Origin: Candidatus Alistipes avicola
Lineage (GTDB): Bacteria > Bacteroidota > Bacteroidia > Bacteroidales > Rikenellaceae
Assembly (NCBI GenBank): GCA_019118565.1
Contig: DWYR01000009.1
Location: 1 to 64,000 of the forward strand
Reading direction: 5' to 3'
Length of the DNA stretch: 64,000 nt
A program made the position numbers and the translations under genes. Positions 29,705-54,093 of this stretch are shown here, one piece after another. Below the pieces are notes generated by a model that worked only from the letters and a program-made list of their open reading frames with translations, had not been told where the DNA came from and made no database searches. Position 1 is the stretch's first letter; each line of letters starts with the position of its first letter.

Positions 29705-29806
29705 ATTCGTTGGAACAGGGCGGGGTGAGAGGTCTGGAATAAGGAACGAGGATGGATCGAAAGATTAGTTTGCACGAAAATGTGTTTTTTTGAAAAAAAA
29801 TATATT

Positions 29807-29814
29807 ACCTTTGC
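29807..29814 (+). promoter_or_regulatory. -7 box of the B12-riboswitch operon
   Basis: TACCTTTG, an exact consensus match, just before the first riboswitch. No TTTG lies at the ideal -33 distance. No second perfect promoter is seen before the second riboswitch, so both riboswitches should sit in one leader. Confidence 0.6.
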
Positions 29815-29815
29815 C

Positions 29816-30008
29816 GAGCATTGGTTCCGAATCCGGATTTTATCCGATGGGATTAAAAGGGAATGCCGTGAAAACCGGCGACAGTTCCCGCTGCTGTGAG
29901 TTCCAGCCCCTTGTGAGGGCATAACGATTCCAATACTCTTTTGCCACTGGGTAATACTGGGAAGGCGTTGGAATCGGGACGAGTCAGAAAACCTGCCTGT
30001 GCCTATGT
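29816..30008 (+). ncRNA. Cobalamin riboswitch, first of a tandem pair
   Basis: Conserved cobalamin aptamer elements appear in order: GATTAAAAGGGAA, GCCGTGAAAACCGGCGACAG, CCCGCTGCTGTGAG, CCACTGGG, GGGAAGGCG and the B12-box-like GAGTCAGAAAACCTGCC near 29980. Downstream, GGGAGATA (about 30022) can pair with TATCTCCC (about 30076) before CTTTATTTT, a possible terminator-type expression platform. Aptamer edges are approximate. Confidence 0.88.
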
Positions 30009-30158
30009 ATCATTAGCCTTCGGGAGATAGGGCGACGGATTCACGGATCTTATTCCGTTTTCCTCTATTTGTATCTCCCCTTTATTTTGTAGTTTAATTT
30101 GTTCGGACAGACGGTCCGTACGAAGATATTTATTTTGGTTCTTTCCATATTTCAATTG

Positions 30159-30337
30159 CATCCGTTGCAGTTTCCCCTTTGCAGGGAATTAAAAGGGAAC
30201 CGTGTGTGAATCACGGGCTGTCCGCGCAACTGTAAGCACCCCGAAAAGTCGTCTTGACAAATCCACTGTTCTGTCCGCAGGATGGGAAGGAGAGGACGAC
30301 CGGTGCAAGCCAGGAGACCTGCTGTGATGGATTGACG
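30159..30337 (+). ncRNA. Cobalamin riboswitch, second of a tandem pair
   Basis: A second full set of elements: GGAATTAAAAGGGAACC, GTGTGAATCACGGGCTGTCC, CGCAACTGTAAGC, CCACTG, GGATGGGAAGG and the canonical B12 box GCAAGCCAGGAGACCTGC. The core is the classic form, differing from the first copy, so the two were probably not made by recent local duplication. It starts about 150 nt after the first. Confidence 0.92.
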
Positions 30338-30614
30338 AAAAGCTTTCGCCGGTAAAAGCAGGGGTCAAATCATTCGTTGCGACCGTAAGGTCGTCGGATC
30401 GAGTTCTTTTTGCCGTTTCATACCGTGGAAGTGCTGTGAAATGTGGCAAGGGCAATACCGTAAGAACAGTCTGTCTATGTGTAAACAACGATGTTTGATC
30501 CTGTGTGGATACCGGTTACGAATTCGTGCGCGATCGATCCGCTCTCCCTCCGGAGCTGTTCGACGGTAAGAATGCAATTGAAATATAATTATTAATCAAA
30601 GAACCAAAAGCAAA
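30338..30614 (+). other. Long leader between riboswitch 2 and first gene
   Basis: 277 nt without a recognisable gene. It contains a small hairpin CGACC-GTAA-GGTCG (30380-30393) and an unrecognised 42-codon ORF (30441-30569). The last 40 bases before the ATG are A-rich, as usual for Bacteroidetes initiation regions. The riboswitch therefore does not obviously mask the start codon directly. Confidence 0.5.
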
Positions 30615-32417
30615 ATGAGAACAAAACAACTTCTTTTATTGGCCGGGATGGCATTTCTGACAGTATCGTGTGCGAAGGAGTCGCGAAATGATATGGAGAT
30701 CGGCAATACGTTGCACGTGAATCTGAACGTCGTTTCCGACATTCCGGTCCGTGCGGCCGCTACCGAGGCAGAGAATCTCGTTTCAACGTTCGATCTCTTT
30801 CTGTTCGATGCCGAGTCCGGTCTGCTTGAATATGCACAGCAGGGGATGATGGCTTCTTCTCCTTCGAGCGGAGGAGCCGTCGGCGAGTTGAATGTCGGTC
30901 AAGTCTCCCTGACGGTTGCCGATCGTAAGAACAAGAATCTGTTGGCTGTGGCCAATGGGGATACACGTTCGGTCGTGTTGCCGGAGGTCGTTGTCGGTCA
31001 GACTACGTATGCACAGATGCTCGAAGCGGTGGCAATGCTCTCATCGACTACCGAGTCGCCCTCTTCGCCTTATGTGATGAGCGGCTATGCGAGTGGAGTG
31101 AATGCCAATGACAATCCGACCGTGAATCTGTCGTTGCGTCGTCGCGTTTCGAGGATTGACGTGGTGAATCTTTCGGCGGATAATGGACTGGTTGTCTCTG
31201 CCATGCAACTAAAACAGGTTGTCAATCAGAGCTATCTGTTCGCCGAGGGGCATCCGTCCGAGGGGGTAACGTATGTGGATTACGATCCGGTGGCCGTGAT
31301 CGGCAATTCGACGACATCGTTCTATGTATTCCCGCAGCCGGCTGCAACCAACAGGATGACATTGACGGTTACCGGTACGTTGAACGGGATGGATTTCACC
31401 CAAACCTTGGAGGTGAAACCGATGCAGGAGGGCGTTGCGATAGACATGGAGTCCAATACAGCCTATACGGTGAAACTACAGGCTCAGGCGCAGGAGATTA
31501 AAATGGAGTGCGCCTTGCAGACGGTCGAGGAGTGGAAGGACGGGGCCGATATTGCCGGCGTTATTACGGTCGATCCTGCCGTACCGTCGGATTTGATCCC
31601 TTTCAACGGATTGCTCTGGATGGATCGCAACCTGGGTGCAACGACGGCCGATCTGGAGGATTGGGACAATGCTATCGGTGATTTCTATCAGTGGGGACGC
31701 AATACGGCTTTCTCGGCTACCGGGCAGATCGAGACGATCTCCGGCCCGTTGACGGCCGAGGCGGCTGCATCGGATGAGAATATCTCCAAATTCATCACCT
31801 TGATGAAAGGGGACTGGCTGGATGGTTCCGATGACTCGCGTTGGCAAAGCGCCGCTTCGCAGCCCTGCCCGGAGGGATACCGGATGCCTACGGTGGCGGA
31901 TTTCATGGGAATCTTCACGCCGGCCGGCGTATTGGTCAATACCTATACGGGACCTGTGTCGAAATCGGAGACGTTGGCCGATGGAACTTTCTCGGCTCAG
32001 TATTGGGGCGATCGCAGCCGCACCATGTATGGAATCAAGAAGATGGGGACGGCCGATGCCTACTACATGAAGTGGGAGTACTTGAAGACGAATGGCGGGA
32101 ACGGCTATGTGAAGATCAGCCGCTGGACAGCCGATGCTGCGGCGACCTTTACCGGAAAAGACTTGAATGCGATCCAGGAGGAGTTCGTCGCTTTGGGGGA
32201 GCCTGCCGAGACGATAACCTTTGCCGCAGCCGGAAATATTACGGGCAGCAGCGGAACCTACAGCAACAGTTCACAGGGAGGTTATTACTGGACCTCGTCG
32301 CTCAACGGTTCGACCGGAGCGCATCGTGCCGAGTTTACATCGGGCAAGATGATTGCCGGGGATACGTACAACAGTCGTATCAGTGGTCATTCTGTCCGGT
32401 GTATTAAGGAGCAATAA
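30615..32417 (+). CDS. Fimbrillin-like/FISUMP lipoprotein under B12 riboswitch
   Basis: 600 residues. Lipoprotein signal MRTKQLLLLAGMAFLTVSC. The N-terminal region (about 30-300: LHVNLNVVSDIPVRA, FDLFLFDAESG, NLLAVANGD) resembles the FimA/Mfa1-type major fimbrial subunit domain. The C-terminal half (about 320-600: WMDRNLGATTADL, FYQWGRN, PCPEGYRMPTVADF, GYYWTSS, HSVRCIKE) is a Fibrobacter succinogenes major-paralogue (FISUMP) domain. The fusion suggests a surface or fimbria-tip protein. It lies behind two cobalamin riboswitches and 35 bp before a second lipoprotein gene, so B12 should repress both. No transport gene accompanies them in the window. Confidence 0.8.
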   Translation: MRTKQLLLLAGMAFLTVSCAKESRNDMEIGNTLHVNLNVVSDIPVRAAATEAENLVSTFDLFLFDAESGLLEYAQQGMMASSPSSGGAVGELNVGQVSLTVADRKNKNLLAVANGDTRSVVLPEVVVGQTTYAQMLEAVAMLSSTTESPSSPYVMSGYASGVNANDNPTVNLSLRRRVSRIDVVNLSADNGLVVSAMQLKQVVNQSYLFAEGHPSEGVTYVDYDPVAVIGNSTTSFYVFPQPAATNRMTLTVTGTLNGMDFTQTLEVKPMQEGVAIDMESNTAYTVKLQAQAQEIKMECALQTVEEWKDGADIAGVITVDPAVPSDLIPFNGLLWMDRNLGATTADLEDWDNAIGDFYQWGRNTAFSATGQIETISGPLTAEAAASDENISKFITLMKGDWLDGSDDSRWQSAASQPCPEGYRMPTVADFMGIFTPAGVLVNTYTGPVSKSETLADGTFSAQYWGDRSRTMYGIKKMGTADAYYMKWEYLKTNGGNGYVKISRWTADAAATFTGKDLNAIQEEFVALGEPAETITFAAAGNITGSSGTYSNSSQGGYYWTSSLNGSTGAHRAEFTSGKMIAGDTYNSRISGHSVRCIKEQ

Positions 32418-32452: not shown

Positions 32453-33460
32453 ATGAAAAAAATTGCATTTTTACTGCTGCTGCCTCTGATGTGGCTGGCG
32501 GGTTGTTCGAGTGATGACAAAGCCGAAACGACGGTTGCCGTAACGGGAGTTACGATCGATCAGCCGACCTTGACGCTTACGGTAGGTCAGAGCAAAACTC
32601 TGGTAGCCACGGTAGCTCCTGAAGATGCCACTACGAAGGATGTGGTTTGGACGACGAGCAAGGCCGAGGTAGCATCGGTAGGCGAGAAGACGGGTGTCGT
32701 GACAGCAGTAGCAGCCGGTACGGCTACGATTACGGTAACGACTGTCGAGGGAGCTAAGACAGCCACTTGTACGGTGACGGTTGTCGAGCCCGAACCGGAG
32801 AAGGTGGTTGCAAGTTTCGAGGGTAAATTGAGCGCAGCGAACAGCCAGTTTATGGCAGTCGACAAGGTGCCGGAACAGAGTGTTCAGTATGATGCTACGT
32901 TCACGGATAACGATAACCTGCTGACCTTCACGCATACTTATGCGGATTGGGGAACTGGTTACACCTTCTCGCGTTTTACCTTTACGAACATGACGGATAA
33001 TTCTGAGGCTAACAGTATCGCCGCTATCACCCAGGCTGCGAAAGAGGGTACGATCTACCTCTCCGTTAATTCGAGTGATTTCACTCCGGCTTCGTTTACG
33101 GTGAATGATCCTGCTGCTTATTCGTTGAACGGTGCCTGGGTTACCAACTGTACGTATGCTTACAATGGCATGACTGTCGGTGATTCTTATTCTACTGCCT
33201 TTAAGGCCGGCAGCTGGTTCAAATTGACGGCGAAAGGTTACGATGCCGAGGAGCAGGAGATCGGCTCGGTTGATATCTATCTGGCAAACTACCAGAGCGA
33301 TGACGACAAACCGGTCAACGAGTGGATCTGGTTCGATATGACGCCTATTGCCGATGCCATAAAGGTGGTCTTCTCGCTGGAGTCAACCGATACGGGCAAG
33401 TGGGGTATGAATACGCCGGCCTACTTCTGTATGGACGGCGTTACGCTTCAGAAACGTTAG
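32453..33460 (+). CDS. Big_2 + DUF4465 lipoprotein under B12 riboswitch
   Basis: 335 residues. Lipobox in MKKIAFLLLLPLMWLAGC. A bacterial Ig-like Big_2 domain follows (about 30-110, VTIDQPTLTLTVGQSKTLVA ... GTATITVTT), then a C-terminal DUF4465-like domain (about 120-335, with WVTNCTYAYNGMTVGD, KLTAKGYDA, VDIYLANYQSD, WGMNTPAYFCMDGV). Both parts should lie outside the cell as beta domains. Bacteroides B12 loci encode surface cobalamin-binding lipoproteins (BtuG, BtuH), so B12 capture is a reasonable hypothesis here; the match is by context, not by any binding motif I can name. It is followed by a terminator. Confidence 0.8.
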   Translation: MKKIAFLLLLPLMWLAGCSSDDKAETTVAVTGVTIDQPTLTLTVGQSKTLVATVAPEDATTKDVVWTTSKAEVASVGEKTGVVTAVAAGTATITVTTVEGAKTATCTVTVVEPEPEKVVASFEGKLSAANSQFMAVDKVPEQSVQYDATFTDNDNLLTFTHTYADWGTGYTFSRFTFTNMTDNSEANSIAAITQAAKEGTIYLSVNSSDFTPASFTVNDPAAYSLNGAWVTNCTYAYNGMTVGDSYSTAFKAGSWFKLTAKGYDAEEQEIGSVDIYLANYQSDDDKPVNEWIWFDMTPIADAIKVVFSLESTDTGKWGMNTPAYFCMDGVTLQKR

Positions 33461-33766: not shown

Positions 33767-33840
33767 TAGCGAGTCTGAGACTTGAACTCAGGACCTCATG
33801 ATTATGAATCATGCGCTCTGACCAGCTGAGCTAACTCGCC
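33767..33840 (-). tRNA. tRNA-Met (CAT anticodon)
   Basis: A cloverleaf read on the minus strand: acceptor GGCGAGT / ACTCGCT (terminal G-U), D arm GCTCAGCTGGTCAGAGC, anticodon stem CATGA/TCATG with loop TTCATAA (CAT), and T arm CTGAG-TTCAAGT-CTCAG. CCA is not encoded. It lacks the initiator mismatch at 1-72, so it is elongator tRNA-Met, or tRNA-Ile2 if the C34 is lysidine-modified. Confidence 0.92.
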
Positions 33841-54020: not shown

Positions 54021-54093
54021 TGATCCCGCTGGGGCTCGAACCCAGGACCCCAACATTAAAAGTGTTGTGCTCTACCGACTGAGCTACGGAATC
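54021..54093 (-). tRNA. tRNA-Lys (TTT anticodon)
   Basis: 73-nt cloverleaf: acceptor GATTCCG / CGGGATC, D arm GCTCAGTCGGTAGAGC, anticodon stem CAACA/TGTTG with loop CTTTTAA (TTT), T arm CTGGG-TTCGAGC-CCCAG. CCA is not fully encoded. Confidence 0.95.

Follow-up and report, generated by a model that had tools for sequence, protein, structure and literature searches.

Two complete cobalamin aptamers of different origin lie one behind the other ahead of a two-gene operon for B12 capture, and we interpret them as independent riboswitches on one mRNA, the first ending in a terminator and the second in a helix that hides the start codon. We assign this whole account a probability of about 0.5. The window, that is, the whole 64-kb stretch of DNA analysed, was searched with the Rfam model RF00174 (gathering score 31.5 bits), which revealed two full-length aptamers on the + strand, each matching model positions 1-189 and each having its own core and its own B12 box.

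29805-30014, + strand: cobalamin aptamer 1; RF00174 83.3 bits, E = 4.9e-19; groups with congeneric riboswitches
30151-30340, + strand: cobalamin aptamer 2, of the CGCGCAACTG subtype; RF00174 110 bits, E = 1.1e-26; clade support 100/98

The initial annotation had described two complete aptamers with separate B12 boxes, spaced by about 150 nt between 29816 and 30337, and had named an RF00174 search in which a single match would count against it. Two significant matches were obtained; 137 nt separate them (152 nt from one P1 to the other), and the outer coordinates were correct to about 11 nt. The + strand between the aptamers contains no ORF of at least 80 aa. Because both aptamers match the full-length model of the same Rfam family, the simplest reading is that the pair would sense one ligand twice, rather than provide the two-input control that the initial annotation had raised. 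RF00174 matches number six in the genome (1.81 Mb, 25 contigs). Besides the tandem pair, two lead genes that we take, from their sequences, to be cob(I)alamin adenosyltransferase-like and anaerobic ribonucleotide reductase-like, and the remaining two lead predicted surface lipoproteins.

A tree of 62 rows grouped aptamer 1 with riboswitches from its own genus and placed aptamer 2, with the core CTGTCCGCGCAACTGTAA, inside the CGCGCAACTG clade (support 100/98), whose members come from Bacteroidales, Sphingobacteriaceae, Weeksellaceae and other Bacteroidota. With these separate placements we reject a simple duplication, in agreement with the earlier remark that the two are of different sequence types and not a recent duplication. 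The aptamer 2 subtype and the first gene are absent from the sampled congeners, and none of 180 congeneric genomes gave a DNA match spanning the tandem. A two-aptamer pattern of the same geometry (roughly 137-197 nt between B12-box and core motifs) was found only in the source genome among 101 relatives. Plausibly, a riboswitch-gene unit of foreign origin was placed downstream of a native riboswitch. In the complete list of RF00174 matches from 61 genomes, there is one other possible doublet, interrupted by masked bases (locus L106, G051:C5:252145-255300). It consists of a full aptamer at 252395-252583, a masked N run, and a partial match at 252670-252752 of 27 bits, below the cut-off.

Promoters of Bacteroidota carry a -7 box with the consensus TAnnTTTG. 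One such box is present in the leader.

29806-29813, + strand: -7 box TACCTTTG, a perfect TAnnTTTG at offset +1 of the RF00174 start; the sole Bacteroidota-type promoter of the leader

For comparison of the box, 83 RF00174 matches, almost all from Bacteroidales relatives, were aligned on a common coordinate. At offsets -6 to +3 of the model start, the box is perfect in 75/83 and has at most one mismatch in 80/83, where the chance rate of a box with at most one mismatch is about 8% by our own estimate. Aptamer 2 is one of the three exceptions, having no -7 box at the usual offsets, and TAnnTTT[G/A] is absent from either strand of 30100-30640. A scan for sigma70-type promoters gave one match, at 30560-30589, which is no more than expected by chance. 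The lack of a clear promoter between the aptamers, also noted in the initial annotation, was thus borne out for the Bacteroidota -7 box, by consensus only. Since only aptamer 1 has such a box, a perfect one, and 30100-30640 is free of TAnnTTT[G/A], a single leader running through both aptamers is the simplest reading and is likely on sequence grounds, and we infer a transcription start at P1 of aptamer 1 or slightly within it. Leaders of the CGCGCAACTG subtype consist of a -7 box, 6-12 nt, GTTCTT(T) and then P1, a 5' segment missing in other cobalamin riboswitches. In the tandem leader GTTCTTT is kept at 30138-30144 and the promoter expected 6-12 nt upstream is gone, which provides a second argument for a single leader. 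Among the relatives, a cobalamin riboswitch (L070, G023:C51:57677-57854) has no -7 box at the usual place, and its close relative L072 carries TAACTTTG as -7 box.

Two hairpins follow aptamer 1.

30016-30033, + strand: P13-like downstream hairpin GCCTTCGGGAGATAGGGC, homologous in position and sequence in most riboswitches compared (by eye)
30022-30089, + strand: terminator-like hairpin GGGAGATA/TATCTCCC with CTTTATTTTG, platform 1, from folding

The hairpin after P1 reads GCYTTCGGG..GAAAAGC or CCTGCGG..GGG in related leaders and GCCTTCGGGAGATAGGGC here, and its 3' half doubles as the 5' arm of the terminator. The terminator hairpin comprises 58 nt (30022-30079, about -22.9 kcal/mol) and is followed by CTTTATTTTG, an imperfect, interrupted T-tract. 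The initial annotation had noted a possible terminator platform after the first aptamer; its GGGAGATA/TATCTCCC stem and T-rich stretch were both recovered here. Holding aptamer 1 in its Rfam fold raises the predicted stem probability to 0.98-1.0, from 0.78 for the free RNA. This shift is in the direction expected for an OFF terminator, folding programs being weak evidence on switching.

The leader segment before aptamer 2 is complementary to the segment before the first start codon, at AUG 30615, in two adjoining blocks.

30133-30144, + strand: 5' arm of helix B, TTTTGGTTCTTT, perfect 12-bp complement of 30598-30609; holds GTTCTTT (30138-30144)
30147-30161, + strand: 5' arm of helix A, ATATTTCAATTGCAT, directly 5' of aptamer 2 P1, perfect 15-bp complement of 30572-30586
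30342-30359, + strand: conserved hairpin GCTTTCGCCGGTAAAAGC downstream of aptamer 2; subtype relatives have GCTTTCGCG..AAAAGC at this position
30572-30586, + strand: 3' arm of helix A, complement of 30147-30161
30598-30609, + strand: 3' arm of helix B, ending 5 nt before the start codon

The second platform, which the initial annotation had left as unclear, is probably this long-range helix of 12 + 15 bp, in which the start codon would be buried. The helix A 15-mer has just two sites in the 1.81-Mb genome, mutually inverted, and no other perfect inverted repeat with distant arms reaches 13 nt within the window. Helix B is nested around it and has an imperfect extension (30126-30144 with 30598-30616, 84% over 19 nt) through the AU of AUG 30615. 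Out of 20,000 shuffles with the bases of the 3' region, one reached 15 bp and about 21 reached at least 12 bp. Blocks of 12 and 15 bp jointly in register are far rarer than either, though the regions were picked once the complementarity was known. The long-range helix is part of the leader's minimum-energy folds, and including the 5' arms lowers the mean unpaired probability of 30598-30620 to 0.21, from 0.60 in their absence. As Shine-Dalgarno signals are generally missing and hardly used in Bacteroidota (PMC3155529), pairing that masks the A-rich bases upstream of the AUG would be a sensible way to block translation.

Formation of the helix would, we infer, depend on ligand, but equilibrium folding does not support this dependence, giving the long helix the same probability with and without native aptamer 2 enforced. 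In partial transcripts, availability of the arms is slightly higher with the native fold at most lengths and inconsistent at 30500. Stacking of P1 on helix A, or the order of co-transcriptional folding, could supply the ligand dependence. Pairing of the 15-mer was found only at the tandem locus, with shorter cases among relatives (e.g. 11 bp in L127), and there was no relative with the tandem locus for a covariation comparison of the helix. Long-range pairing between the 5' segment and the start codon was also considered as a conserved feature of the subtype and rejected, as it is not general in the 65 relatives tested. Inspection by eye for L5-L13 kissing-loop complementarity gave nothing convincing.

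The first ATG lies 275 nt after aptamer 2, and the two genes of the operon are 35 nt apart.

30615-32417, + strand: first gene, encoding a predicted lipoprotein of 600 aa; Pfam match to PF08842 above its cut-off and to PF09603 slightly below
32453-33460, + strand: second gene, 335-aa predicted lipoprotein, Big_2 + DUF4465; PF14717, E = 3.7e-43

A comparison of the second gene product with PDB entries gave 4jqr (E = 6e-68), followed by 9fct and 9qpm (about 1e-42). BtuJ1 and BtuJ2 of B. thetaiotaomicron are high-affinity cobalamin-binding lipoproteins with the DUF4465 fold (PMC12751083), B12 binding has been reported for divergent members of the DUF4465 family, and the conserved (G)TPAYF loop of DUF4465 bears a B12-binding tyrosine (PMC13398666). 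The TPAYF loop is kept in the second gene product (NTPAYF), which appears to be BtuJ-like, with a predicted B12-binding domain. The first gene product is made up of an Mfa2-like fimbrillin N-terminal part and a divergent Fib_succ_major C-terminal part. It has no full-length orthologue in the genomes searched; its best relative, in G555, matches at 41% over the C-terminal domain, and the stretch examined there contains no cobalamin core. A divergent Fib_succ_major-type C-terminal domain (LWMDRNLGAT..YQWGR..PCPEGYRMP) is shared by three riboswitch-led lipoproteins, located at L112:842-2587 (on contig C17 of the source genome), at L117:2181-3938 (G156) and at 31605-32414 of the window, and is a candidate for a further B12-capture module. 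As a riboswitch-specific family, Fib_succ_major was rejected, being common in the order. Other riboswitch-led lipoproteins of the genus (L114 in G002, L094 in G004, L116 in G106 and L085 in G023) have variable N-terminal modules (fimbrillin-like, DUF4988) and a C-terminal DUF4465 or DUF5074. The genus thus seems to possess a modular repertoire of riboswitch-led lipoproteins for B12 capture. Two tRNA genes were detected with Rfam, at 33767-33840 (- strand), just downstream of the operon, and at 54021-54093 (- strand).

In the proposed mechanism, one mRNA from the promoter before aptamer 1 would carry both riboswitches ahead of the two-gene operon, and ligand binding would switch each element OFF. 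With enough cobamide, aptamer 1 would fold and favour the hairpin at 30022-30079, ending transcription near 30090. Transcripts that escape would carry aptamer 2, with P1 stacked on the 12 + 15 bp long-range helix, which would hide AUG 30615 and so block translation too. When cobamide is scarce, both blocks would be lifted and both surface lipoproteins made. Plentiful B12 would thus keep the surface proteins for B12 capture tightly repressed. The second step could act on mRNA that has already been made, an advantage that has been proposed for tandems with two mechanisms (PMC9481103). With the start-codon helix as second platform, the pair would be a two-mechanism device and not only a means to a steeper dose response.

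A merely steeper dose response is what would be expected if the pair were pseudo-cooperative, with both riboswitches terminating transcription and the second doing so through CGACC-GTAA-GGTCG and the TTCTTTTT run near 30400. Of all tandem types, same-class doublets in which every riboswitch has its own terminator are best known (PMC9481103), and a hairpin with a T-run (-12.7 kcal/mol) is indeed found 29-61 nt after aptamer 2. However, this hairpin is weak, its T-run does not adjoin the stem, and the terminator scan listed nothing after aptamer 2. Nor would two terminators account for the complementary blocks of 12 + 15 bp at the start codon, and we consider this arrangement unlikely. Two separate transcripts, with aptamer 2 under its own weak promoter and the pair merely adjacent, are a distinctly less probable alternative. 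The candidate promoter is TTATTTTG (30130-30137, offset -21), one mismatch from TAnnTTTG, and relatives of the subtype likewise start upstream of P1, as in L120 with TATATTTG at -24. The mismatch, however, breaks the conserved A at position 2, and TTATTTTG would end 0 nt before GTTCTT, where the box of the relatives ends 6-12 nt before it, such that a start from TTATTTTG would fall inside or after the conserved element. The absence of any TAnnTTT[G/A] match speaks against an own promoter as well.

The 15 + 12 bp inverted repeat could also be a feature of the DNA rather than of an RNA switch, bordering an invertible (phase-variable) or once-mobile segment that contains aptamer 2. Invertible promoters are known from Bacteroidales, where fimbrillin-like surface proteins are a usual target. 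The repeat is perfect and genome-unique, its arms are 410 nt apart, it precedes the gene of a fimbrillin-like surface protein, and the missing subtype and first gene in sampled congeners look as if the segment had been inserted. However, the segment contains no -7 box on either strand, such that inversion would move no promoter. The gap between the blocks measures 2 nt at the left border and 11 nt at the right one, which does not resemble a pair of recombinase sites; the normal leader of the aptamer 2 subtype has sequence homologous to both left arms; and no recombinase match was found among the adjacent ORFs scanned. This explanation is very unlikely. Scarcely probable, too, is that one riboswitch is dead, more likely aptamer 1, in a transient state after a foreign riboswitch-gene unit was inserted behind the native one. 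The tandem is found in one genome only, and aptamer 1 has the lower score (83 vs 110 bits) and more non-standard pairs (14/50 vs 7/51). Nevertheless, its score is far over the cut-off and within the range of intact congeneric riboswitches, and its core, B12 box, perfect promoter and strong terminator are all kept. The locus is known from one genome, possibly a MAG, for which an assembly error is conceivable; against this, both aptamers and both genes lie jointly inside one 257-kb contig.

The preferred reading of two unlike riboswitches on one mRNA can be compared with known tandems. Pseudo-cooperative doublets of AdoCbl riboswitches, 26 of which were found in a survey (PMC9481103), likewise have two complete cobalamin aptamers per leader with a presumed platform each. 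Here, in contrast, the aptamers come from different subclades, the platforms look unlike (a terminator and a candidate start-codon helix), the host belongs to Bacteroidota and the target is a B12-capture operon. The bi-mechanism SAM-II/SAM-V tandem (PMC9481103) places a terminator first and then controls translation of the same gene with the same ligand, as proposed here; the present pair differs in its cobalamin ligand and in having a long-range helix as candidate second platform instead of a short anti-RBS. The btu operons of Bacteroides thetaiotaomicron similarly place cobalamin riboswitches over surface B12-binding lipoproteins, including those with DUF4465 (BtuJ), and in operon 1 a further riboswitch precedes btuB1 (PMC12751083). 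That second riboswitch belongs to an internal operon promoter, whereas the second aptamer here lies 137 nt behind the first in one leader. Same-class AdoCbl doublets and two-mechanism SAM pairs are thus already known. The combination seen here is unusual, joining two cobalamin subclades, a terminator and a candidate start-codon helix with an intervening boxA-like element. If the account is true, it represents a cobalamin counterpart of the SAM-II/SAM-V pair, built from two unrelated lineages and not by duplication. It would also suggest a translational route for riboswitches where Shine-Dalgarno signals are hardly used, based on pairing of an arm of the leader to A-rich sequence upstream of the AUG.

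The GTTCTTT of the CGCGCAACTG subtype can be read as boxA-like. The gammaproteobacterial boxA consensus is GYTCTTTAANA, and the leaders of rRNA and suhB, which contain boxA as the site for NusB/NusE, likewise have a GTTCTTT core near the 5' end of the transcript (PMC5725501); in the tandem the candidate element precedes a riboswitch aptamer. Some leaders of the subtype match this gammaproteobacterial consensus exactly (L143 and L150). The open-access literature yielded no paper that links boxA in substance with cobalamin riboswitches. Possibly, the phylum-wide subtype begins with a boxA that couples loading of Nus factors to ligand sensing; here the unit would have lost its promoter and become fused downstream of a native riboswitch of the terminator type, with its boxA recruited into the helix that hides the start codon, giving three layers of control. 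We regard this extension as tentative and its truth as doubtful. The boxA observation may nonetheless deserve more attention than the tandem itself, as the motif at the 5' end of the subtype offers a testable link between Nus factors and riboswitches.

The boxA-like subtype loci are L127, L128, L131-L134, L141-L258 and 30138-30144 of the window, and the GTTCTT motif spans several classes of Bacteroidota. GTTCTT was detected in the 70 nt before the aptamer in 48/79 members of the subtype and in 2/81 riboswitches of other types. In the same 118 records, TAnnTTTG was followed by GTTCTT within 5-13 nt at 35/81 boxes near a subtype core and at 4/977 boxes elsewhere. Counts of this kind are inflated because the sequences are related to each other. 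A similar element, GTTCTTTGAAA, occurs about 120 nt before the 16S rRNA in 12/60 Bacteroidales genomes, with 0 for the reversed-pattern control; the tandem leader carries GTTCTTTCCA and shares with this rRNA-leader element the 7-nt core only.
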